This document shows, one piece after another, positions 1,789-12,838 of a DNA stretch of 21,411 nucleotides. The stretch covers positions 1 to 21,411 of the IMG/VR virus record IMGVR_UViG_3300046010_006676; one strand, given 5' to 3'. Position 1 is the first letter of the stretch; each line of letters begins with the position of its first letter. The position numbers were made by a program, and so were the translations under genes. The notes below the pieces were generated by a model that did not search any database, was not told where the DNA came from, and worked only from the letters and a program-made list of their open reading frames with translations. Source of the DNA: a virus.

Positions 1789-2109
1789 ATGGCGGCATCA
1801 GGCTTTACACCTATTCAGCTTTATCGCACGACGACAGGGGCGGCTGTGCCTTCTGCGGCTAACCTGTTGCCGGGGGAGCTTGGCTTCAACATCGCCGACA
1901 CCGACATGGCCCTGTATGCCGAAAACGCCTCTGGCACGGTCACCCGCATCATGAACAACCCTGCTGGCTTAAAGTACCCCACTGCGGATGGCTCAGCAAA
2001 TCAAGTTATTAAAACTGACGGTGCTGGCAACTTGTCTTTTGTAACTCCTGCTTCGGCTGGCGCTACCAAGGGTCAAGCCATCGCTTTTTCAATCGTTTTT
2101 GGTCTGTAA
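1789..2109 (+). CDS. Short tail-fibre/virion protein
   Basis: 106 residues beginning MAASGFTPIQLYRTTT. The middle part (PGELGFNIADTDMALYAEN) matches a pattern I recognise from small phage tail proteins that bind fibre or baseplate components: a 'PxxGELxFNxxDxxLY' strand followed by a Gly/Ser-rich stretch. It starts four bases after the previous stop. The ATG is preceded by GAGGTAAC at 1778-1785, a usable ribosome binding site overlapping the end of the upstream gene. No membrane segment or enzyme motif is visible. The assignment as a virion protein rests on that motif and on the gene neighbourhood. Confidence 0.6.
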   Translation: MAASGFTPIQLYRTTTGAAVPSAANLLPGELGFNIADTDMALYAENASGTVTRIMNNPAGLKYPTADGSANQVIKTDGAGNLSFVTPASAGATKGQAIAFSIVFGL

Positions 2110-2118
2110 GGAACCACC

Positions 2119-2496
2119 ATGGCAAATCCAAATATTATCAATGTCACAACCCTCACAGGTAACACGACATACCTCACACCAGCTAACACAACAGCTAACA
2201 CCTTGTTGTCTAACGCCGCATCTTCTGGTCTGGTCTTCAAGATCAACCAGATCGTGTGTGCTAATGTGAACGGCGCAAGTGCAGTAAACGCAACGGTTGC
2301 AATTAACAACGCCGCCGCTGGTGCAGGTACGAACTTCCCAATTATCTCTACGATCTCTGTGCCTGCTAGTGCATCTGTGATTGCAGTGGATAAGACAACG
2401 GCTGTGTACCTGATGGAAAATCAATCCATCGTGGTGACTTCTGGTACATCTAGCGGTATCACTTACACGATCAGCTACGAGTCAATCGCAAGCTGA
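2119..2496 (+). CDS. Small beta-rich virion protein
   Basis: 125 residues, Thr/Ala/Asn/Val-rich, with alternating hydrophobic strands and no charged helices. Features include an N-terminal TTLTGNTTYLTPANTTAN stretch, a central VFKINQIVCANVNG strand and a C-terminal SGTSSGITYTISYESI segment. This resembles small jelly-roll or beta-sandwich decoration proteins of phages, but I do not recognise a named family. AAGGAACC at 2108-2115 precedes the ATG. Function is inferred from composition and from its position between a fibre-like gene and the propeller genes. Confidence 0.55.
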   Translation: MANPNIINVTTLTGNTTYLTPANTTANTLLSNAASSGLVFKINQIVCANVNGASAVNATVAINNAAAGAGTNFPIISTISVPASASVIAVDKTTAVYLMENQSIVVTSGTSSGITYTISYESIAS

Positions 2497-2508: not shown

Positions 2509-3651
2509 ATGTCTATAAGACAAATGTTCTTGGGGAGCATAGTTAAGCCGGGGTTCAATCCTCTAGCGGCTCAGACTACAACCACTTTTTACAACTTATA
2601 TAGTTGGGGAAGAAATGGTCAGGGTCAGCTAGGTCTTGGAAATAGAACAGATTATTCATCCCCCAAACAAGTTGGCTCTTTAACTGATTGGTTAACTGTT
2701 GTTGGTGGTCAATACGATAGTTTTTCTGTTAAAAATGATGGTAGTCTTTGGGATTGGGGTTGGAATAATAATGCTCAGTTAGGTCTTGGAAACACGACTC
2801 AATATTCAAGTCCCAAACAAGTTGGCGCTCTTATAACTTGGTCTAAGATAGCAACTTCTAAAGCATATTACTCCACATTAGCTGTTAAAACTGACGGTAC
2901 TTTATGGAGTTGGGGTAACAGTAGTTTTGGTCAATTAGGTCTTGGAAACTTAACAGCTTATTCATCCCCAAAACAAATTGGCGCTTTAACTAATTGGTTA
3001 AGTGTTACTGGTTCTTATGCCTCATTCATGGCAGTAAAAACTAATGGAACATTGTGGGCTTGGGGAAATAATATTAACGGTCAACTTGGACAGGGAAATG
3101 TAACAAGATATTCTAGCCCCAAGCAAATTGGTTCTTTGACTAATTGGTTGCAAGTATCTGGTTGTTATTTAGCAGTTGCCGCAATTAAAACAGATGGAAC
3201 AATGTGGTCTTGGGGCGCTAATAATGAAGGCCAACTAGGTCTTGGTAATGGCACATATTATTCCTCTCCTAAACAGATTGGCGCTTTGACTAATTGGTCT
3301 AAACTTTCTGTAAATGGCGGCAGTAACAATGGTTTTTTAGCTGTTAAAACAGACGGAACATTGTGGGCTTGGGGGTCAAATGGCTCTGGTCAATTGGGCG
3401 ATGGAACTAGAACAAATCGTAATTCTCCTGTACAGATTGGTGCACTAACTAATTGGTCAATTGTTGCTACTGGGCAGGCTTTTTCTCTTTCAATTAAAAC
3501 AGATGGTACTCTTTGGTCTTGGGGTCGAGGAAGTTCAGGTCAATTGGGGTTTAATAATTTAACTTATTACTCTTCCCCAAAACAAGTTGGCTCGTCAACA
3601 ACATGGCTTGCAGTTGCGGCAGGGGAACGACATACTCTGGCTCTAGGATAA
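2509..3651 (+). CDS. RCC1-repeat seven-bladed beta-propeller, copy A1
   Basis: 380 residues. After an N-terminal anchor of about 30 residues (with the motif VKPGFNPL), seven repeats of about 50 residues follow. Each carries a core close to GQLGLGN-T-YSSPKQ-G-LTNW and ends in KTDGTLWSWG, the RCC1 signature. The N-terminal strand (YSWG) and the C-terminal strand (HTLAL) look able to close one ring, giving a seven-bladed propeller. The sixth repeat has SPVQ in place of SPKQ. AGGGGAA upstream is the ribosome binding site. In phages such propellers are probably virion-exposed binding domains; the anchor would hold it to the tail. The ligand is unknown. The coding sequence is AT-richer than the enzyme genes nearby. 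Confidence 0.85.
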   Translation: MSIRQMFLGSIVKPGFNPLAAQTTTTFYNLYSWGRNGQGQLGLGNRTDYSSPKQVGSLTDWLTVVGGQYDSFSVKNDGSLWDWGWNNNAQLGLGNTTQYSSPKQVGALITWSKIATSKAYYSTLAVKTDGTLWSWGNSSFGQLGLGNLTAYSSPKQIGALTNWLSVTGSYASFMAVKTNGTLWAWGNNINGQLGQGNVTRYSSPKQIGSLTNWLQVSGCYLAVAAIKTDGTMWSWGANNEGQLGLGNGTYYSSPKQIGALTNWSKLSVNGGSNNGFLAVKTDGTLWAWGSNGSGQLGDGTRTNRNSPVQIGALTNWSIVATGQAFSLSIKTDGTLWSWGRGSSGQLGFNNLTYYSSPKQVGSSTTWLAVAAGERHTLALG

Positions 3652-3654
3652 ATC

Positions 3655-4821
3655 ATGGCAGTAACAGTAACCACAGGCGTTCAATACTCAGGCATCTGGA
3701 CAATGCAACAGGTGAATGCCGCTATTGCGGCTGGGACTTGGCCTGTCGGAAGCCCTAATCGTTTGTACTCATTTGGTGCAAACAATCAAGGTCAACTCGG
3801 CCTTGGAAATACTACCTCTTACTCATCTCCCAAACAAATTGGGACAGGAAATAGATGGCTTCGTGTCAATGGCGCTATGGATGGCGGTCATATGCTGTCT
3901 GTTTTTTCAACTGGTGCTTTGTATGCTTGGGGTCAAAATGATCGTGGTCAACTTGGTCTTAGTAACAGTTCTTATGGTGTAAGCAGTCCTACTCAAGTTG
4001 GAGCATTGACTAATTGGTCAACAACTTCAGGTGGATATGCTTGTACTCTTGCGGTCAAAACTGATGGTACTTTATGGTCATGGGGACGAGGTGATAATGG
4101 TGTTCTTGGCTTAGGCAATGTTACAGATTATTCATCCCCCAAACAAGTTGGCGCATTGACTGGCTGGTCTTCCGTTGCGGCTGGACAAGATTCTAGCTAT
4201 GCCATTAAAACAGATGGTACTTTATGGGCGTGGGGTTCTGGTGGTTCTGGTGCTTTGGGTCTAGGCAACACTACTAGCTATTCCTCTCCAAAACAAGTGG
4301 GTGCTTTAACAAGTTGGTTGCAAGTGGTTGGTGGTTACGGATGGGCTTTTGCTATTCGTTCTGACAATACAATTTGGGCGTGGGGCAGAGGTGGGCAAGG
4401 TCAGCTTGGAAATAGCAATACATTTGATCGTTCTTCACCAGTTCAAATTGGAGCTTTAACTAATTGGTCTTCTGGCGCGGCTGGTCAACAATCTGGTTAT
4501 GGGATTAAAACCGATGGCACTATGTGGGCATGGGGTAACAATGGTCAAGGTCGTTTAGGAATTGGAACGGCGGTAAACAATTCATCTCCAGTTCAAGTTG
4601 GTGCATTGACTACTTGGTTAAAAGTTTGTTCTGGAAAATATCAAGCGTACGCTGTAAAAACTGACGGGACTTTATGGTCTTGGGGTGACGGAAGTGGTGG
4701 AAAATTGGGTCTTGGAAATACAACAACTTATTCATCTCCAGTGCAAATTGGTTCATCTACCAATTGGATTGCGATACCATCACAAGTTCAAGTCTCATTT
4801 GCCGCAATAACAACAGCATAA
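3655..4821 (+). CDS. RCC1-repeat seven-bladed beta-propeller, copy B1
   Basis: 388 residues. The N-terminal anchor differs from that of the upstream copy: GVQYSGIW, then an Ala-rich helix and GTWP. It is followed by seven RCC1 repeats (YSSPKQ-G...KTDGTLWSWG type). Repeats 5 to 7 carry SPVQ rather than SPKQ. The ribosome binding site AGGA lies inside the last two codons of the preceding gene (Leu-Gly-stop), so the two propellers are probably made in a fixed ratio. No signal peptide is visible. A virion receptor-binding or decoration role is inferred from the phage context and the anchor; an enzyme role is not supported. Confidence 0.85.
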   Translation: MAVTVTTGVQYSGIWTMQQVNAAIAAGTWPVGSPNRLYSFGANNQGQLGLGNTTSYSSPKQIGTGNRWLRVNGAMDGGHMLSVFSTGALYAWGQNDRGQLGLSNSSYGVSSPTQVGALTNWSTTSGGYACTLAVKTDGTLWSWGRGDNGVLGLGNVTDYSSPKQVGALTGWSSVAAGQDSSYAIKTDGTLWAWGSGGSGALGLGNTTSYSSPKQVGALTSWLQVVGGYGWAFAIRSDNTIWAWGRGGQGQLGNSNTFDRSSPVQIGALTNWSSGAAGQQSGYGIKTDGTMWAWGNNGQGRLGIGTAVNNSSPVQVGALTTWLKVCSGKYQAYAVKTDGTLWSWGDGSGGKLGLGNTTTYSSPVQIGSSTNWIAIPSQVQVSFAAITTA

Positions 4822-4825
4822 ACAC

Positions 4826-6598
4826 ATGAACAAAACACTGCACTTCCTCTCTGGCATTCCTCGTTCTGGCTCAACAGTCCTTGCGGCTATCCTGAATCAG
4901 AATCCGATGACTCATGTATCCACCACATCTGGGCTTGTCCACGCCCTTGATGGCTTGGCTAATACATGGCACTCAGCGGGTCTTCTCAATGAGAACGATC
5001 CCACCAGAGAGAAGCTTGCACAGACGATGCGTGGTTGCATTGATGCGTTCTACGAAGATACAGACAAACCTGTCATCATTGACAAGTCTCGTGGCTGGCC
5101 TATCCCCCAGATCATGGGTGCGATGTCTCAGGTGATTGGTCGCCCATGCAAGGTGATTGCTACAGTGCGTCCAGTACCAGACTGCATGGCTTCATTTGTC
5201 CGTGTGGCAAAGCCTGCTGATCTGGATGAGTTTATGTACTCAGGCCAGTTAGCTGACCACTTGAAAGCCGCTTACCTGTCTTTGGAAGCTGGCTACCAAG
5301 CCATGCCAGAGAACTTCCTGTTTGTTGAATACGACAAGCTGTTGGCTGATCCCCGCGCAGAACTTGCCCGTATCCATGAGTTCTTGGAACTTCCCGAATA
5401 CGACTACGACTTCTCCAACATTGATGGCTCATCAGTCAAAGAAGATGACGAGAACCTCCATGGTTACGCTGGTATGCACGATGTCAAACCAGTTTTGGCT
5501 AAACAGCACAACGACAAGTCTAAAGACCTGCTCAAACACCACTACAACCAGTTCTGCCAGCCAGAATTCTGGAGCGGTGGCGTTCGTACCATGCCAGAGT
5601 TGGATGACCTTGATCTACAGGTAGCCGCAGGCAAGATGGGTGACTTTGTTGAAGGCTGGAGACTGTCTGAGAAGCTCCACGCAGAGCGTCCTAACGACCA
5701 CCGTGCGGCTTATAACCGTTCATGGTATTTACTCAAGCAGGGTCAGATTGGCGAAGGCTACAAGCAGATGGATCGTGGTCGCTACTGTGGGATCATTGGT
5801 GAGCGCCGCCCAGACACACCAGCCCCTGAGTGGGACGGTAAGACCAAAGGGACTATCCTCCTGTACTGCGACCACGGCTTGGGCGATCAGATTCACCAAG
5901 TGCGCTATGCCCGTGATTTAGTGGCTAGGGGTAACAAGGTTGTGGTCTGCTGTTCTGGTCAACTGGCTCACTTGTTTGCTGGCATTGAAGGCGTATCCGC
6001 TGTGGTTCAGGTTGGTGCTGAGTTTGGCGTGTTCCACGACTTCTGGTGCTATGGCATGACAGCCCCTAACTACCTTGGCTACGAGATGTCTGATCTGCGT
6101 GGTGATGCTTACATTCCTAAGCCTACGACCATCAAAGGCCGTAAGAAACGCATCGGTATCCGCTGGCAGGGCAACTCAAAGTTTGAAGACGATCACAACA
6201 AGAAGTTCCCTTACGAACTGCTGTTCAACGCCATCAAAGATGCTGACGCAGAATTCATTTCTTTACAGCGTGATGAGGGTGCTGAGGCTTGCCCAACATG
6301 GGTAAAACAAGTACCATTAAACACATGGGCAGACACCCAAGCGGCGGTGGCTAGTTGTGATCTGGTGATCTCTTCTTGCACATCGGTCAGCCATTTGGCG
6401 GCGGCTATGGGCGTTGAGACTTGGGTAGTGATTCCAGTGATGGGCTACTACCTGTATGCACTTGATGGCGACAAGACACCTTATTACGACACCATGACTT
6501 TATTTAGGCAAGAAGTGTTTGGCGAATGGGAAGCTCCGTTTGAGAAGATCAAGGAGCGTTTAAACGCCAATCGTGCCGCACTGAGGAGCGTAGCGTGA
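4826..6598 (+). CDS. Sulfotransferase fused to a GT9/heptosyltransferase-like glycosyltransferase
   Basis: 590 residues with two enzymatic halves. Residues 1-250 are a PAPS-dependent sulfotransferase: the 5'-phosphosulfate loop is PRSGST (12-17), DKSRGW lies at 86-91, and the 3'-phosphate site is the VRP...S segment (114-123). Residues about 260-320 look like one or two TPR-type helices. Residues 340-580 are a GT-B fold domain of the type seen in TPR-linked GT9-like proteins: GLGDQIHQVRYARD (351-364), RIGIRWQGN (442-450) and CTSVSHLAAAMG (518-529). Known relatives of the second half include ADP-heptose:LPS heptosyltransferases, which matters because ADP-heptose genes lie downstream. The acceptor and the sugar donor cannot be read from the sequence. 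It sits between two pairs of propeller genes. Confidence 0.8.
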   Translation: MNKTLHFLSGIPRSGSTVLAAILNQNPMTHVSTTSGLVHALDGLANTWHSAGLLNENDPTREKLAQTMRGCIDAFYEDTDKPVIIDKSRGWPIPQIMGAMSQVIGRPCKVIATVRPVPDCMASFVRVAKPADLDEFMYSGQLADHLKAAYLSLEAGYQAMPENFLFVEYDKLLADPRAELARIHEFLELPEYDYDFSNIDGSSVKEDDENLHGYAGMHDVKPVLAKQHNDKSKDLLKHHYNQFCQPEFWSGGVRTMPELDDLDLQVAAGKMGDFVEGWRLSEKLHAERPNDHRAAYNRSWYLLKQGQIGEGYKQMDRGRYCGIIGERRPDTPAPEWDGKTKGTILLYCDHGLGDQIHQVRYARDLVARGNKVVVCCSGQLAHLFAGIEGVSAVVQVGAEFGVFHDFWCYGMTAPNYLGYEMSDLRGDAYIPKPTTIKGRKKRIGIRWQGNSKFEDDHNKKFPYELLFNAIKDADAEFISLQRDEGAEACPTWVKQVPLNTWADTQAAVASCDLVISSCTSVSHLAAAMGVETWVVIPVMGYYLYALDGDKTPYYDTMTLFRQEVFGEWEAPFEKIKERLNANRAALRSVA

Positions 6599-7728
6599 GC
6601 TTTAGATACGCCGCTGGGATAAACAAGCCCGGGTTCAACCCGCTTGGAACCCAGACTTCTACATTGCTTTACAACCTGTTTAGTTGGGGTAATGGAAACA
6701 ACGGAGCCTTAGGGCTTGGCAATTTAACTTATTACTCATCTCCTAAACAAGTTGGGTCATTGACTAATTGGTCAAAAATTTCTGGTGGAAATCAATTTGT
6801 TTTGAGTACAAAGACAGATGGTACGCTCTGGGCTTGGGGAGATCACGGAGATGGTCAATTAGGGTTAGGAAACTTAATTGGATATTCTTCCCCTAAACAA
6901 GTTGGGTCATTGACTACTTGGTTAAATATAAGCGCAAATTTTAGATCTTCGTTAGCAATAAAAACTGACGGTACTTTATGGGCGTGGGGGTTAAATAGCA
7001 ACGGTCAACTTGGTCTTGGTAACACCACAGGTTATTCCTCTCCTAAACAAGTTGGGTCATTGACTACTTGGGCAAGTATATCTTCCTCACCGCATAGCAA
7101 ACTTAATTTTGCCATTACAACATCCGGCACACTTTATGGCTGGGGTCAAAATACTGACGGACAACTTGGTCTTGGTAATACAACACAGTATTCCTCTCCA
7201 AAGCAAGTCGGTGCTTTAACCAATTGGTTAAAAGTAGCTGGCGGCGCGTACTTTACCCTTGCAGTAAAAACAGATGGTACTCTTTGGTCATGGGGAAATA
7301 GTGCCTATGGACAATTAGGTTTAGGTAATACAACGGCGTACTCTTCTCCTAAACAAATTGGCGCAGGAACAAGTTGGTTAAATATTGCCGCAAATTATGG
7401 AAGTTCTTTTGCTGTTAAAACAGATGGAACTATTTGGGGTTGGGGTTTAAATAATTATGGTCAATTAGGTTTAGGTAACACAACCAGCCGCAACTCTCCA
7501 GTGCAAATTGGTGCATTAACAAATTGGTCAACCATATCTACAAGCGGTGTTGACCAAGGTGGAATGGCTACAAAAACCGATGGGACATTATGGGGTTGGG
7601 GCCGAAATAGTGATGGTCAACTAGGTTTAGGTAACACAACAGATTACTCTAGCCCAAAACAAATTGGGTCTTCAACAACATGGCTTAGAGTGGCTAGTGT
7701 CAACAAGTCTTGCGTGGCTTTAGGATAA
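6595..7728 (+). CDS. RCC1-repeat seven-bladed beta-propeller, copy A2
   Basis: 377 residues starting at GTG, whose last two bases begin the TGA of the upstream gene (GTGA); GAGGAGC lies a few bases before. The anchor (INKPGFNPL, then a Thr/Ser stretch and YNLFSWG) matches that of the propeller at 2509, so these two are paralogues. Seven RCC1 repeats follow, more regular than in the other copies (GQLGLGNTT in most). As in the first copy, the sixth repeat has RNSPVQIG. The protein ends in Ala-Leu-Gly-stop, and AGGA in those codons serves the next gene, exactly as in the first pair. Role as for the other propellers: probable exposed virion protein of unknown ligand. Confidence 0.85.
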   Translation: MSFRYAAGINKPGFNPLGTQTSTLLYNLFSWGNGNNGALGLGNLTYYSSPKQVGSLTNWSKISGGNQFVLSTKTDGTLWAWGDHGDGQLGLGNLIGYSSPKQVGSLTTWLNISANFRSSLAIKTDGTLWAWGLNSNGQLGLGNTTGYSSPKQVGSLTTWASISSSPHSKLNFAITTSGTLYGWGQNTDGQLGLGNTTQYSSPKQVGALTNWLKVAGGAYFTLAVKTDGTLWSWGNSAYGQLGLGNTTAYSSPKQIGAGTSWLNIAANYGSSFAVKTDGTIWGWGLNNYGQLGLGNTTSRNSPVQIGALTNWSTISTSGVDQGGMATKTDGTLWGWGRNSDGQLGLGNTTDYSSPKQIGSSTTWLRVASVNKSCVALG

Positions 7729-7731
7729 AAG

Positions 7732-8886
7732 ATGGCAACCACTCTAGTATCAGGCGTTCAATACTCAGGTATCTGGAACATCAGCAGTCAAGCCAATGCT
7801 AAGGGGGCTGGGACATGGCCTATACCTCCGGGGCCAAGTATATTTTCTTGGGGCCTTGGGACTTCTGGACAGCTTGGCTTGAGTAATACTACAAGTTATT
7901 CATCACCTAAACAAGTTGGTTCATTGTTAACTTGGTTAACAGTCTCAGCGGGTGGAGATTTTTCTTATGGTAAAAAGAATGATGGTTCACTCTGGGCTTG
8001 GGGGTACAATGGTAGTGGTGAATTAGGTTTAGGTGATACCGTACAAAAAAATAGTCCAGTACAAATTGGAACACTTTACAATTGGTCAGTTACGGCAGGT
8101 GGTTATCAACACACAATTGCTACAAAGACTGACGGTACTCTTTGGTCTTGGGGAAATAACAACAGTGGTCAGCTTGGTTTGGGCAATATAACCAATTATT
8201 CATCCCCAAAACAAATTGGAGCTTTAACTACTTGGTTAAATGTTGCCGCAGGTTACAGGTACTCATTTGCAATCAAAACCGATGGAACTTTGTGGTCTTG
8301 GGGCCGTGGGGGGAATGGCGCTCTTGGGTTGGGCAATGTAACAAATTATTCAAGTCCAATGCAAGTAGGCTCGCTTACTAGCTGGTTAAAAGTTGCCTGT
8401 GGGTACAACCAAACTTTGGCTATAAAAACTGACGGAACGCTCTGGTCTTGGGGAAATAATAGTACTGGCGGGCTTGGATTAGGAAATACAACATATTATT
8501 CATCTCCTAAACAAGTAGGTTCTCTAACAAATTGGTTAAGTTTTTCTTGTAGATCAAATCAAACATTAGCAACCAAAACTGATGGTACTTTATGGTCTTG
8601 GGGCGCTAATGCTTATGGACAAATTGGCGATGGCTCGACTACAGATAAATCCTCCCCAGTTCAAATTGGGGCGTTAACTACTTGGTCAGCCGTTGCGGCT
8701 GGTGAGGTGCAGAGCATAGCTTATAAAACTGACGGAACTTTGTGGGGTTGGGGCCGAAATAATGAAGGTCAGCTTGGTCTTGGCAATAGAACAAGCTATT
8801 CTTCTCCCAAACAAGTTGGCTCACTAACTACTTGGTTAGCCATAGCAAGTGGCAGGTATCACACCTTAGCTATTAAAAACACTTAA
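7732..8886 (+). CDS. RCC1-repeat seven-bladed beta-propeller, copy B2
   Basis: 384 residues. The anchor (SGVQYSGIW ... GAGTWP) matches that of the propeller at 3655, making this the second B-type paralogue. Seven RCC1 repeats follow; repeats 2 and 6 carry SPVQ in place of SPKQ. The ATG lies three bases after the preceding stop. The last repeat closes with GRYHTLAIKNT, suggesting the usual strand-sharing closure of the ring. The gene is followed by a 26-base gap with a strong ribosome binding site and then by the enzyme operon. No catalytic motif is visible. Confidence 0.85.
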   Translation: MATTLVSGVQYSGIWNISSQANAKGAGTWPIPPGPSIFSWGLGTSGQLGLSNTTSYSSPKQVGSLLTWLTVSAGGDFSYGKKNDGSLWAWGYNGSGELGLGDTVQKNSPVQIGTLYNWSVTAGGYQHTIATKTDGTLWSWGNNNSGQLGLGNITNYSSPKQIGALTTWLNVAAGYRYSFAIKTDGTLWSWGRGGNGALGLGNVTNYSSPMQVGSLTSWLKVACGYNQTLAIKTDGTLWSWGNNSTGGLGLGNTTYYSSPKQVGSLTNWLSFSCRSNQTLATKTDGTLWSWGANAYGQIGDGSTTDKSSPVQIGALTTWSAVAAGEVQSIAYKTDGTLWGWGRNNEGQLGLGNRTSYSSPKQVGSLTTWLAIASGRYHTLAIKNT

Positions 8887-8912: not shown

Positions 8913-9302
8913 ATGACACATTATGTACAAGTCCTCAATGGTGAGGTAAAACAAGTTTGGGACACACCTCCATCTGAAGGTGTCGGTAACAACGGCTGGC
9001 GTAACGCTGTCGAAGTTCGTCCTGCTATTCAAGCCGGTCGCCAAGGCTACACAGCCCACCGCTTTGACTTGAACGCTGACCCCGTGCAGATCATCTGGGA
9101 CACCTACGAAATCTCCGTAGATGACCGCAAAGGTGGCATGAAGTCTAACGCTGGCTTTGAGTTCCAGATGGTTGTGAACCAACAGGCTCGTAACCCTGCG
9201 ACTTATGATGCCGCCGCCATTGAAACTGCTCGTCAGGCTATGGTTGCCAAGCAAGCCGCTATTGATGCTTGCACTACGCACGACCAGCTAGACGCTCTGT
9301 GA
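8913..9302 (+). CDS. Hypothetical phage protein
   Basis: 129 residues, starting at ATG after an excellent AAGGAG at 8901-8906. The N-terminal half is strand-rich (YVQVLNGEVKQVWDTPP, then an Arg/Pro-rich segment). The middle has QIIWDTYEISVDDRKGG, and the C-terminal third is an Ala/Gln-rich helix. The overall plan, a small strand-rich head and a helical tail next to fibre genes, recalls tail-fibre assembly or chaperone proteins, but I cannot name a family. The strong ribosome binding site and its place directly after the propellers suggest high expression. Its stop overlaps the start of the methyltransferase by four bases. Confidence 0.6.
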   Translation: MTHYVQVLNGEVKQVWDTPPSEGVGNNGWRNAVEVRPAIQAGRQGYTAHRFDLNADPVQIIWDTYEISVDDRKGGMKSNAGFEFQMVVNQQARNPATYDAAAIETARQAMVAKQAAIDACTTHDQLDAL

Positions 9303-9865
9303 AGCTCAACCTTGGCTGTGGGTATAACAAGCTAGACGGCTACATCAATGTAGACCATGACCCTCTATGCAATCCTGATATGGTTGCTGACTTAGAGGGT
9401 ACGCTCCCATTTGAAGACAGCACGGTTGATGAGATCGTGTTGTCTCATGTGCTTGAGCATCTTGGGCAGGATACCAAGACATACCTCAATATCTGGCGCG
9501 AGTTCTATCGTGTGCTAAAAGATGGTGGCAAGGTTCATATTGTCGTACCCCACCACAATCACGACAACTTTCACCATGACCCTACCCATGTTCGCAAAGT
9601 CACGCCTCTTGGGGTTGATATGTTCAGCCAAGAGAGAAACATGGAGACTATCCGCACTGGTGGTCAAGAGACTACGCTAGGGTTACAGGTAGGGATTGAC
9701 ATTGGTGTAACGGAAGTTGGCTACGATCTGACCCCTTGGTTTCAACAGCATATTGCAGGAAAACCACAGGATTGGGCAGAGCGTGAGTTGAATAAGTACA
9801 ACAACACTTGTTTTCAGGTGAAAATAAATGCTCAGGCATTTAAACCACCAAGGAGCAAAAGATGA
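9299..9865 (+). CDS. Class I SAM-dependent methyltransferase
   Basis: 188 residues from the GTG at 9299, which overlaps the previous TGA by four bases (GTGA). I prefer this start to a TTG 30 bases upstream because the protein then begins KLNLGCG, the SAM-binding glycine loop, directly at the N terminus, as in other small members. Asp-19 after the second strand would bind the ribose, and SHVLEHL (49-55) is the typical post-strand-4 motif of the Methyltransf_11 family. A His-rich segment (PHHNHDNFHHDP, 84-95) follows. The substrate is unknown; in this cluster a sugar or glycan O-methylation is the natural guess. No clear ribosome binding site, so translation probably depends on coupling. Confidence 0.8.
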   Translation: MKLNLGCGYNKLDGYINVDHDPLCNPDMVADLEGTLPFEDSTVDEIVLSHVLEHLGQDTKTYLNIWREFYRVLKDGGKVHIVVPHHNHDNFHHDPTHVRKVTPLGVDMFSQERNMETIRTGGQETTLGLQVGIDIGVTEVGYDLTPWFQQHIAGKPQDWAERELNKYNNTCFQVKINAQAFKPPRSKR

Positions 9866-10647
9866 AGAGAATTTTAGTTATGGGGTTACCCGGGGCGGGC
9901 AAGACCACCCTAGCCCAATACATCCTTGACCACTTGCAAAACGAACGCAAGACCGTCATGTGGCTCAACGCCGATGATGTGCGCAAGAAGTTCAACGACT
10001 GGGACTTCTCCCACGAAGGTCGCATTCGCCAGAGCCTGCGTATGCGTGAGCTTGCTGACAGCTACGATGTAGATTATGTGATCTGCGACTTTGTTGCTCC
10101 TCTTGTTGAGATGCGTAACAACTTCAAAGCTGACTGGACTATCTGGGTTGACACCATCAATCAAGGTCGTTTTGAAGACACCAACAAGGTGTTCGTTCCT
10201 CCTAAAGAATATGACTTCAGGATCACCGAGCAGAAGTCTGAGAAGTGGGGTGAGTTTATTGCCGCGCACATTTTGGATGACCGCCGCCGCCCTGTATTTG
10301 ACTGGCAAAAAGAAACAGTCCAGATGCTTGGCAGATGGCAACCTTGGCATGAAGGCCACCGTAAACTGTTTGAACGGGCGTTAGCTAAGACTGGTCAAGT
10401 TGTGATCCAGATCAGGGACTGCCAAGGCTGGAACGGCTCTAACCCGTTTGCCGCCAATCAGGTCAAAGAGTTTATTAGCCGTGATCTAGACCCCCTGTAT
10501 CAAGGACAGTACGAAGTTCAATTGGTTCCTAACATTGTCAACATTACCTACGGGCGCGATGTTGGCTACAAGATTGAGCAGGAATCTTTTGACGATGCTA
10601 CCCACGCTATCTCGGCAACCAAGATACGCAAAGAGATGGGTTTGTGA
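9862..10647 (+). CDS. APS-kinase-like domain fused to HxGH nucleotidyltransferase
   Basis: 261 residues, ATGA overlap with the methyltransferase. Residues 1-140 resemble adenylylsulfate kinase (CysC): Walker A GLPGAGKTT (8-16), NADDVRKKF (36-44) in the place of the usual Asp-Gly-Asn substrate loop, and FSHEGR-IRQSLR (49-60). Residues 150-261 form a compact nucleotidyltransferase: LGRWQPWHEGH (156-166) with the catalytic HxGH and ISATKIRKEM (250-259), the ISxTxxR signature shared by NMN adenylyltransferases, cytidylyltransferases and ATP sulfurylases. The domain order equals that of animal PAPS synthetase, but the second domain is far shorter than ATP sulfurylase. Making PAPS for the upstream sulfotransferase is plausible. 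CysC homologues can also phosphorylate other nucleotides, so the substrate is not settled. Confidence 0.75.
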   Translation: MKRILVMGLPGAGKTTLAQYILDHLQNERKTVMWLNADDVRKKFNDWDFSHEGRIRQSLRMRELADSYDVDYVICDFVAPLVEMRNNFKADWTIWVDTINQGRFEDTNKVFVPPKEYDFRITEQKSEKWGEFIAAHILDDRRRPVFDWQKETVQMLGRWQPWHEGHRKLFERALAKTGQVVIQIRDCQGWNGSNPFAANQVKEFISRDLDPLYQGQYEVQLVPNIVNITYGRDVGYKIEQESFDDATHAISATKIRKEMGL

Positions 10648-11081
10648 TTGTCTTCACCAATGGATGCTTTGATGTGCTCCACCGTGGTCACATCGAGTAT
10701 CTCAAAGAGTCCCGCAAACTTGGGACTAGGCTAGTTGTGGGGTTGAACTCAGACGCTTCTGTTAAGAGGCTCAAGGGTGATAGCAGACCTATCAACAATC
10801 AGGATGACCGCAGAGCACTGTTGCTGGCGCTCAGGTGTGTAGATCAGGTGGAAATCTTCGAGGAAGATACGCCACTAGAGTTGATCATGCGAATCAACCC
10901 TGACATCATTACCAAAGGTGGTGACTACCAGCCTGCTCAAGTTGTGGGACACGCTATTGTTCAGAAAACAGTTATCATTCCATTTTTAGACGGGTATTCA
11001 TCAACAAGGATTATCCATGCGGTTAAAAGGAATAGTGGAGAAGGGTTGGGGTTCGGAGCTAATCTGGGCAACCAACGATAA
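10644..11081 (+). CDS. rfaE2: D-glycero-beta-D-manno-heptose 1-phosphate adenylyltransferase (HldE C-terminal type)
   Basis: 145 residues, GTG start with GTGA overlap. It transfers AMP from ATP to heptose 1-phosphate to make ADP-D,D-heptose. The full signature is visible: TNGCFDVLHRGH (5-16) with HxGH, GLNSDASVKRLKG (33-45), RPINNQDDRR (48-57), the KGGDY motif (91-95) and SSTRII (119-124). In Escherichia coli this is the C-terminal half of HldE; here it stands alone and precedes the kinase half. The last 22 codons or so (after RIIHAVKR) overlap the start of the cupin gene and look like an added tail. Glycerol-3-phosphate cytidylyltransferase is related but lacks the RPIN-Q-DRR and KGGDY pattern. 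Confidence 0.85.
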   Translation: MIVFTNGCFDVLHRGHIEYLKESRKLGTRLVVGLNSDASVKRLKGDSRPINNQDDRRALLLALRCVDQVEIFEEDTPLELIMRINPDIITKGGDYQPAQVVGHAIVQKTVIIPFLDGYSSTRIIHAVKRNSGEGLGFGANLGNQR

Positions 11082-11379
11082 ATACTGCGGAAAGCTGATG
11101 ACCTTTCGCAAGGGTGCTAAGTTTTCCATGCACTTCCACGCTGAGAAAGACGAGACTTGGCTAGTCCAAGGTGGTCTGTTCAAGGTCATCTGGATTGACA
11201 CCAAAGATGCCAGTCGCCATGAAAAGATTCTCAACATTGGGGACACATGGCACAACCCACCATTATTGCCACACCAGCTAGTCTGCCTAACAGCAGGTGT
11301 GATCTTGGAAGTCTCAACTGCTGACTCTGTGGAGGATAACTACCGAGTCGAAACAGGAGACAGCCAATGCGCATCCTAG
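11017..11379 (+). CDS. Cupin, sugar-isomerase (mannose-6-phosphate isomerase C-domain) like
   Basis: 120 residues with a single cupin barrel. KGWGSELIW (9-17) followed by GKLMTFRKG is the opening motif of the cupin domain of type II phosphomannose isomerase/GDP-mannose pyrophosphorylase proteins. HFHAEKDET (39-47) and PHQ (85-87) supply the likely metal ligands His-39, His-41, Glu-46 and His-86. EVSTADSVEDNYR matches the family's C-terminal end. The ATG at 11017 has AAGGA at 11005-11009, and the WGSE motif requires a start here, so the 65-base overlap with the adenylyltransferase gene looks real. Its substrate is not readable; a sugar phosphate or nucleotide sugar of the heptose pathway is the contextual guess. 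Confidence 0.75.
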   Translation: MRLKGIVEKGWGSELIWATNDKYCGKLMTFRKGAKFSMHFHAEKDETWLVQGGLFKVIWIDTKDASRHEKILNIGDTWHNPPLLPHQLVCLTAGVILEVSTADSVEDNYRVETGDSQCAS

Positions 11380-12080
11380 TTGTTGGCGATGGTTGCATAG
11401 ACGAATACCGCTATGGCGAGATACGAAGGGTAAACCCTGAATCTACTGCGCCCCTCCTAAACTTTGAAAAAAGCGAAGAGAAGATGGGCATGGCGTTTAA
11501 TGTTGCTCAAAACCTTCAGGCGTTTGGTGCTGAAGTCACTTTGTGCGTAAGCGACGAGATATCCCGCAAGATCAGATACATTGACCGTAGGACTGGTGAG
11601 CACCTTCTGAGGGTTGATCAAGATGTCGAAGCTACGCCCTACGACTTTGGCGTGCCCATGGAGGGGTTTGATGCCATTGTGATCTCTGACTACAACAAGG
11701 GACATGTGCTTGACGAGGTTGTTTTGCAGTTGCGCCAGCAGTTTGAGGGGCCAATCTACATGGACACCAAGAAACGCAACTTGGCAGACTTTCCTGACAT
11801 CTACATCAAGATCAACCAGCGCGAACTGTACGACTCTACCTCACTGCCTGATTCAGAATATCTGATAGTCACCTATGGCGCTAAGGGCTGTGGATACAAG
11901 GACAAGCTATATCCTGCCAAGCCTATTGAGGTGGTTGATGTTTGTGGGGCTGGTGATGTGTTTCTTGCCGCGATGGTGGTCAAGCACCTAGAGACTGGCG
12001 ACATGGGCATAGCTTTGCCGTTTGCTAACGAAAAAGCGGCAATATCTTGCCAGAGTCTAGGAACTGTATGCGTATCTTGA
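11367..12080 (+). CDS. rfaE1: D-glycero-beta-D-manno-heptose 7-phosphate kinase (HldE N-terminal type, shortened)
   Basis: 237 residues of the PfkB/ribokinase family, ATG overlapping the cupin gene by 13 bases, with CAGGAGA upstream. VVGDGCIDEYRYGEIRRVNPE (5-25) matches the HldE opening, MAFNVAQNLQAFGAEVTL (42-59) stands for its GGAANVA sugar site, and HLLRVDQD (79-86) is its conserved later strand. KINQREL (148-154) and VVDVCGAGD (189-197), with the catalytic Asp-197, complete the active site. The end, LGTVCVS, also matches the family. It is about 80 residues shorter than the E. coli kinase domain, and much of the loss lies between residues 60 and 68, where the family has an extra subdomain. 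It makes heptose 1,7-bisphosphate; the shortened form may still be active since the catalytic motifs are kept. Confidence 0.8.
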   Translation: MRILVVGDGCIDEYRYGEIRRVNPESTAPLLNFEKSEEKMGMAFNVAQNLQAFGAEVTLCVSDEISRKIRYIDRRTGEHLLRVDQDVEATPYDFGVPMEGFDAIVISDYNKGHVLDEVVLQLRQQFEGPIYMDTKKRNLADFPDIYIKINQRELYDSTSLPDSEYLIVTYGAKGCGYKDKLYPAKPIEVVDVCGAGDVFLAAMVVKHLETGDMGIALPFANEKAAISCQSLGTVCVS

Positions 12081-12838
12081 TCACTGGTTACAAGGGGTTT
12101 ATTGGTCAAAACATGGTCAAGGCGCTGTCTGACCACGAGTTAGACCTGTGTGATTGGGGCGACGAGTATTCCCTCTATGGCATAGACAGGGTGATCCACC
12201 TTGGCGCGATCTCGGATACAAGATGTCAGGACTGGTCGGCTTTGCGTAAGCAGAACTTCTCGTTCTCAGTGACTTTGATGGAGCGTTGCCAGAAGTATGG
12301 CATCCCTATTCAGATAGCATCCTCCGCATCGGTCTATGGCCCCCACAACACGACATTTTGCGAGACTGACCCAGTAGCACCAGCTAACCTTTACGCTGAG
12401 TCTAAGGCGCTTGTTGAGAACTATTTCCACAATATGCGCCCTGAGTCGCCTGTTCAGATATTCAGGTACTTTAATGTGTATGGCCCCCACGAGGATCACA
12501 AGGGCGATCAGGCTTCACCCTTTCACAAGTTCCGTGAGCAGGCAAAAACAGGAACTATCAAGATATTTGAGGGAAGTTCTGAGTTTAAGAGAGACTTTAT
12601 CCATGTGGATAAGGTCATCGATGTGCACAAAAAATTTTTTAAGATTAAAGAATCTGGCATTTGGAATGTAGGCACTGGAAATATATTGTCATTTGAGGAT
12701 GTTGCACACTTGGCAAGCGCTGAATTTCCAGCGAAAATAGAGACAATCCCGATGCCCAAAGATTTAACTGGGTATCAAAAATTCACCAAGGCTGATATGC
12801 ACAAATTACAGGCAACCTTGAATGAAAGACTGGGCTGA
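12068..12838 (+). CDS. hldD: ADP-L-glycero-D-manno-heptose 6-epimerase
   Basis: 256 residues of the extended short-chain dehydrogenase family. I chose the ATG at 12068 (AGGAA at 12059-12063) because it puts the NAD(P)-binding GYKGFIG (7-13) at the N terminus; it overlaps the kinase gene by 13 bases, like the previous pair. Other motifs: HLGAISDT (44-51), SSASVYG (85-91), catalytic Tyr-109 and Lys-113 in LYAESK, FRYFNVYGPHEDHKG (122-136), FEGSSEFKRDFIHV (157-170) and the late NVGTGN. The HKG and EFKRDF motifs point to HldD rather than to a generic UDP-sugar epimerase. It converts ADP-D,D-heptose to ADP-L,D-heptose, the donor for LPS core heptosyltransferases. It is about 50 residues shorter than the E. 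coli enzyme. Confidence 0.85.
   Translation: MRILITGYKGFIGQNMVKALSDHELDLCDWGDEYSLYGIDRVIHLGAISDTRCQDWSALRKQNFSFSVTLMERCQKYGIPIQIASSASVYGPHNTTFCETDPVAPANLYAESKALVENYFHNMRPESPVQIFRYFNVYGPHEDHKGDQASPFHKFREQAKTGTIKIFEGSSEFKRDFIHVDKVIDVHKKFFKIKESGIWNVGTGNILSFEDVAHLASAEFPAKIETIPMPKDLTGYQKFTKADMHKLQATLNERLG

Follow-up and report, generated by a model that had tools for sequence, protein, structure and literature searches.

The locus described here raises the question of why four genes for RCC1 propellers should stand in two pairs on either side of one gene for a two-domain sulfotransferase-glycosyltransferase (X). It lies on a linear IMG/VR record of 21,411 bases (IMGVR_UViG_3300046010_006676; the whole stretch is called the window below), whose structural genes are similar to those for the tail in Caulobacter phages of 62 kb, GB2A and RW among them (56% identity for the adaptor). 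The genes follow one another as A1, B1, X, A2 and B2 at 2509-8886, all on the plus strand. The best explanation of the whole, to which a probability of about 0.5 is assigned, is that lake phages have here a conserved locus for tail adhesins, in which fixed anchors carry exchanged rings and X modifies the propellers.

The four propeller genes contain 28 matches to PF00415, each above the curated cut-off and seven in each gene, which confirms the repeat count of the preliminary description of this DNA. A1 (2509-3651), in the slot termed A_up, consists of a 28-residue anchor (MSIRQMF..KPGFNPL; 2509-2592), which is specific to its slot and kept across phages, and a seven-bladed RCC1 ring identified from its repeats, its anchor and an AlphaFold2 model. 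As judged from repeats and anchor comparison, B1 (3655-4821; B_up) carries the anchor GVQYSGIWTMQQVNAAIAAGTWP, A2 (6595-7728; A_down), which starts with GTG and overlaps the stop codon of X by 4 nucleotides (nt), carries VSFRYAAGINKPGFNPL, and B2 (7732-8886; B_down) carries GVQYSGIWNISSQANAKGAGTWP, each followed by a ring. The anchors noted earlier were found again, KPGFNPL in the first and third propeller genes and GVQYSGIW...GTWP in the second and fourth. Likewise, at both A-B junctions the predicted ribosome binding site of the B gene does lie within the last Leu-Gly codons of the A gene (CTA GGA TAA ATC ATG for B1, with the Shine-Dalgarno-like AGGA at 3645-3648; TTA GGA TAA AAG ATG for B2, with AGGA at 7722-7725), an arrangement seen in 26 of 64 A-B junctions among relatives.

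These relatives, which are metagenomic contigs from lakes and freshwater, were collected by scanning viral contigs with X alone (60 loci) and with B1 (80 loci), and merging identical X gave 72 loci. The layout of two propellers on each side of X is recurrent in these lake phages, being present in 34 of the 72, while the remaining loci have fewer propellers and many of them lie at contig ends. Since the full 7+7-X-7+7 arrangement is seen again in dozens of independent contigs, it is not due to chance, and nearly every complete ring in the relatives keeps its reading frame and has seven blades exactly. Among loci found with X only, the next gene is a propeller in 51 of 52 cases upstream and in 34 of 44 downstream; X follows the B_up gene in 80 of 81, and the commonest gap between X and the A gene is the 4-nt overlap. 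The A/B layout around X is an old one.

Anchors are specific to their slots in the 32 complete loci, with A_up MSIRQMFPGSIVKPGFNPL, B_up GVQYSGIWTMQQVNAAIAAGTWP, A_down VSFRYAAGINKPGFNPL and B_down GVQYSGIWNISSQANAKAAGTWP. When the closest anchor in another genome is sought for each of the 128 genes, it comes from the same slot in 127, whereas the closest ring does so in 50 (32 expected). The anchor types are 54% identical between A_up and A_down, 53% between B_up and B_down, and 18-29% between A and B. Both anchors are fused in tandem in eight distinct single-propeller genes, a hint that the A and B types occupy adjoining sites on the particle. Such single-propeller slots, with a fused A+B or a composite anchor, have been gained or lost on either side of X, and about 15 layout changes were counted on the X tree. 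Further variants were noted among related loci on other contigs (labelled L with a number). Single genes beside X or an X fragment hold 21 RCC1 repeats (L054 and L055) or about 26 (L135), L131 has genes with 14 and at least 21 repeats, amounting to multi-ring polypeptides of about three rings, and some propellers have a fibronectin-III-like domain between anchor and ring (L019, L025, L089, L112 and L132). In L052, a second X-like open frame of 253 amino acids (aa) lies downstream of B_down after a normal locus with two propellers on each side of X.

The rings behave differently from X. Ring identity is about 0.58 whether the X proteins compared are 97% or 72% identical, and is the same within and between slots and within and between genomes. 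In 56 close pairs, the proportions of synonymous (pS) and nonsynonymous (pN) differences are about 0.67 and 0.31 for rings, and 0.30 and 0.02 for X, and the small proteins directly upstream and downstream of the locus are much less diverged than the rings. Since silent sites are saturated, the rings are taken as old alleles imported by recombination and not as products of targeted mutation. Among 242 distinct rings, a few near-identical ones are common to otherwise different phages; their differences are spread evenly along the ring and not in patches, and they come from separate assemblies. The A_up gene of L091 and the A_down gene of L111 share 90% identity over 1195 nt, in a stretch that begins within the KPGFNPL anchor and stops 96 nt into the following B gene. 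As this match ends in conserved anchors, the ring has moved between the up slot of one phage and the down slot of another. These data fit interchangeable rings, with old alleles exchanged at conserved anchors, and not hypermutation.

Closure of the ring and the propeller fold, both anticipated earlier, are predicted with high confidence for A1, as its AlphaFold2 model is a closed seven-bladed ring with a mean predicted local distance difference test score (pLDDT) of 90 and a predicted template modelling (TM) score of 0.86, in which residues 1-14 are disordered (pLDDT <50). The closest structures are the RCC1 domains of UVR8 and the HERC proteins (TM 0.82-0.87 for UVR8 and HERC2). The most variable columns of the rings are all three x positions that follow WG in WGxNxxG, the x of TTxY and the residue after G of the last loop, and they align with W94, D96, F97, D107 and W285 of UVR8. 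The residue next to W285 there, R286, forms pairs across the dimer interface with D96 and D107 (PMC5091643). The variable positions thus share a single face, used for binding by a relative, and the rings may bind the host receptor via this face, as far as alignment can tell.

All four propeller genes match phrog_4219, and PHROG tail families contain these repeats. Three RCC1 proteins of phrog_4219 have been proven in virions of the Escherichia coli phage W70 (Septuagintavirus; PMC11370258) and one in the particle of the Cronobacter phage GAP32 (PMC5259590), while a Clostridioides phage encodes an RCC1 protein among its tail-fibre genes. By analogy, the four propellers are probably receptor-binding tail parts. 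The preliminary description had regarded several variant propellers on one virion as unusual, for which W70 provides a precedent.

X is a strongly conserved protein of 590 aa (4826-6598; mean column identity of 74% in 21 relatives), and its assignment as a sulfotransferase-glycosyltransferase holds, the first half by Pfam sulfotransferase matches and the C-terminal glycosyltransferase (GT) identity by the structure model. Residues 1-257 (4826-5596) form a sulfotransferase domain of the type using 3'-phosphoadenosine 5'-phosphosulfate (PAPS), for which the best solved fold is the human tyrosylprotein sulfotransferase (TPST) TPST1 (5wrj; VIA Z 17.4; profile E-value of 6e-7 to TPST2). The motifs of PAPS-dependent sulfotransferases for 5'-phosphosulfate binding (5'-PSB) and 3'-phosphate binding (3'-PB) are kept, with PRSGST invariant at residues 12-17, and the invariant R115 and S123 align with the corresponding Arg and Ser of TPST. 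Residues 342-585 (5849-6580) have the fold of ADP-heptose transferases, matching WaaC, WaaF and TibC over 228-245 residues (VIA Z 16.0, 15.5 and 14.9, respectively). A bacterial source of X was considered and rejected, as a scan of genomes gave only seven loci, several of them on short contigs of metagenome-assembled genomes which carry RCC1 beside X and look like binned phage.

Genes that could supply both halves of X follow the last propeller. Of 47 loci, 41 have an APS (adenosine 5'-phosphosulfate)-kinase-like gene 0.4-1.8 kb further on, a possible source of PAPS, judging by its sequence. In the window it encodes a kinase-like P-loop domain fused to a nucleotidyltransferase domain of the nicotinamide mononucleotide (NMN) adenylyltransferase type (HxGH...ISATKIR; 9862-10647, plus strand; PF01583 E-value of 2e-10), and other contigs have the kinase part alone (about 150 aa). 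It is followed by a compact ADP-heptose set on the same strand (10644-12838), which comprises the HldE C-domain, a heptose-1-phosphate adenylyltransferase (10644-11081; TIGR02199 E-value of 4e-52, 176 bits with a cut-off of 181.5), a cupin, a shortened HldE kinase domain (11367-12080; TIGR02198 E-value of 4e-31, in three pieces) and an HldD-like ADP-heptose epimerase (12047-12838; TIGR02197 E-value of 1e-58), without GmhA and GmhB.

Taken together, each slot consists of a short fixed anchor, probably docking at one tail site, and a seven-bladed RCC1 ring showing its hypervariable face. Recombination at the conserved anchors swaps whole ring cassettes between phages and slots, so that close relatives display unrelated ring sets. 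X, translationally coupled to A_down, would act on the propellers before or during assembly, its sulfotransferase half placing sulfate from PAPS on them with the aid of the phage APS-kinase-like gene, and its GT half adding a sugar, possibly ADP-heptose made by HldE and HldD in part of the phages. Candidate modification sites could be the N-x-T and Y of the blade motif, whose frequencies are 0.75 and 0.74 in freshwater rings, 0.33 and 0.44 in marine ones and 0.07 each in bacterial RCC1 proteins. That X modifies virion propellers at all is given an even chance, and the more specific proposal, that the phage adds both sulfate and sugar to the receptor-binding propellers it encodes, with rings that are exchangeable, four fixed slots on the virion and a PAPS supply of its own, is put forward tentatively, at rather less than even odds.

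Several observations weigh against modified, exchangeable tail adhesins. The placing of these propellers in the virion draws on the proteomes of W70 and GAP32 by analogy. At the positions aligned with the catalytic TPST residues Glu and Arg (GEETR motif), X has the invariant T34 and G36, and tyrosine is therefore not assured as its acceptor; a true tyrosylprotein sulfotransferase was rejected on this ground. The N-x-T and Y of the blades are absent in Kyanoviridae, which carry linked GT and sulfotransferase genes, and the ADP-heptose set (HldE kinase, HldE adenylyltransferase and HldD) is present in only 16 of 47 loci. Most phage RCC1 proteins (121Q, GAP32 and the Clostridioides phages) were found without relatives of X, and in some cases, such as S-SKS1, a sulfotransferase relative is not near RCC1 genes; thus neither generally needs the other. 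Finally, selection at the variable sites of near-identical swapped rings is not positive, the ratio of nonsynonymous to synonymous substitution rates (dN/dS) being 0.40, and fast positive selection in shared rings was rejected with dN/dS below 1.

The main rival explanation, which is considered rather doubtful, holds that the host is the target of X and the sugar genes, which would sulfate or glycosylate its lipopolysaccharide (LPS) or another surface glycan, for instance to block superinfection, and adjoin the propellers merely because both determine surface recognition. The GT half of X does have the fold of the LPS heptosyltransferases WaaC and WaaF, HldE and HldD produce an LPS precursor, and a gene of glycosyltransferase family 25 (GT25) annotated for LPS biosynthesis is also found in marine loci. 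However, X is locked between propellers, with its 4-nt overlap with A_down, in lineages differing in other surface genes, unrelated marine phages and cyanophages have the same enzyme halves next to RCC1 genes, and the best fold match of the sulfotransferase half is to a protein sulfotransferase.

The two pairs had also been ascribed to duplication of an A-B unit, perhaps with loss or insertion of X between the copies. A recent duplication in this phage, with blades still matched by position, is improbable. The shared anchors speak for it, as does a slightly higher identity of same-position blades over all gene pairs (0.565 vs 0.526), but blades 2-6 of A1 and A2 show no positional signal (P=0.53), the same four slots recur in phages with as little as about 72% identity in X, and the layout changes repeatedly on the X tree. 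The expected pairing of corresponding blades thus failed. Blades 2-6 are nearly interchangeable over 243 rings, with almost no positional signal, and blades do not group by gene either, the outcome named beforehand as contrary to duplication; they lack clustering of both kinds because the rings are exchanged and saturated. The blades therefore neither support nor refute a duplication, and what stands is the relationship of the A and B genes flanking X by their anchors, which supports an old one; an ancient duplication of the A-B unit is possible. One duplication of a gene pair is too simple an account, given that the layout is old and slots come and go, and as X stands between propellers in every complete relative, this genome neither gained X by insertion nor lost it. 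SPVQ is indeed present at blade 6 of all four rings, but it is not exclusive to that blade, being found also in blades 5 and 7 of B1 and blade 2 of B2. As V occupies the SPxQ site in 19% of rings at blade 6 and in 19-22% at blades 3-5 (243 rings), SPVQ was rejected as an ancestral or positional marker and is coincidental across the family.

It is equally improbable that ring shuffling reflects misjoining of repeat-rich genes from mixed populations during assembly. In its favour, the relatives all come from metagenomic assemblies and the blades nearly repeat one another; against it, nearly all complete rings keep their frame and seven blades, near-identical rings come from separate assemblies and show no patchwork, and anchors are faithful to their slots in all but one gene. 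Least probable is fast targeted mutation, for example by a diversity-generating retroelement (DGR): a few loop positions are highly variable on a fixed scaffold, and variation of phage receptor-binding proteins by DGRs has precedents (PMC10743442), but silent sites are also near saturation, variable sites are slower than silent ones in near-identical ring pairs, different phages and slots can hold identical rings, and a reverse transcriptase was found in none of 20 related contigs of 17-84 kb, which may be incomplete, so that a DGR target was rejected.

Among the neighbouring genes, a short protein with a fibre- or baseplate-like N-terminus (1789-2109, plus strand), with weak PHROG matches to baseplate wedge and tail fibre, has relatives in the upstream part of many X loci, and a conserved small protein of 125 aa (2119-2496, plus strand) immediately 5' of A1 is present in nearly all loci. 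A DUF5856/phrog_858 gene ('starvation-inducible transcriptional regulator'; 1440-1784) lies within the tail-fibre block and also occurs in a few relatives. A 129-aa protein (8913-9302, plus strand), encoded immediately behind the final propeller gene in 44 of 47 loci, had no match in Pfam or PHROG and is possibly an assembly factor. In cyanophage S-SRM01 (L137), a DUF4376 protein (5232-5876) lies between two RCC1 genes and is perhaps a tail-fibre assembly factor, a part that the 129-aa protein may also play.

Sulfotransferases and tetratricopeptide repeat (TPR) glycosyltransferases of aquatic phage genomes are usually listed as auxiliary metabolic genes. If the proposal is true, they would gain a concrete role in modifying the phage's own adhesins, which would be combinatorial and chemically modified, and the locus would encode the first phage protein-sulfation pathway, none having been found in the literature searched; no paper there links RCC1, sulfotransferase and phage, and most RCC1 text matches are Roscoff strain numbers. 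The locus also illustrates a way for phages to alter their recognition surface, namely by whole-ring swaps onto fixed anchors and without a retroelement; host range in these lakes may therefore be readable from ring alleles.

Known systems resemble the locus in part. TPST1 and TPST2 share with X residues 1-257 the best solved fold and the PAPS-site motifs, and differ in that their catalytic Glu and Arg positions are Thr and Gly in X. The bacterial autotransporter heptosyltransferase (BAHT) TibC, by which the repetitive adhesins TibA and AIDA-I are glycosylated from ADP-heptose (PMC4358343), is alike in its heptosyltransferase fold, whereas the GT half of X is fused to a sulfotransferase and matches WaaC and WaaF slightly better; the likeness to TibC is one of fold. 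Four of nine phage records with X relatives, from three phages, carry RCC1 genes. In marine contigs related to virus AG-345-E08, GT and sulfotransferase are separate genes, each adjoining an RCC1 gene at every locus with enough flank, and RCC1 genes stand beside relatives of both X halves in S-SRM01 and of the GT half in BUCT-ZZ01. All three have them in tail-gene regions, but differ from the lake phages in their separate enzyme domains and additional 2-oxoglutarate (2OG)-Fe(II) oxygenases and other transferases, and no A or B anchors were noted. In the marine clusters L138 and L142-L166, RCC1 genes alternate with 2OG-Fe(II) oxygenases, GT25, TPR-GT and sulfotransferase genes, which looks like a whole protein-modification island around the propellers. 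Phages W70, GAP32 and 121Q are alike in encoding several RCC1 propellers of about 40 kDa of the same PHROG family in adjacent genes, present in the particle in W70, while the descriptions of these phages mention neither X nor slot anchors nor a layout with four slots. The 121Q array (L209; 7090-21256) has about 13 RCC1-like genes or fragments with no sulfotransferase or GT among them, and could be another store of ring cassettes. Phage receptor-binding proteins varied by DGRs, such as the tentaclins (PMC10743442), likewise combine variable loops with a fixed scaffold; the lake phages differ in that no reverse transcriptase was found in the 20 contigs, and in that old alleles of whole rings appear to be exchanged instead of mutated.

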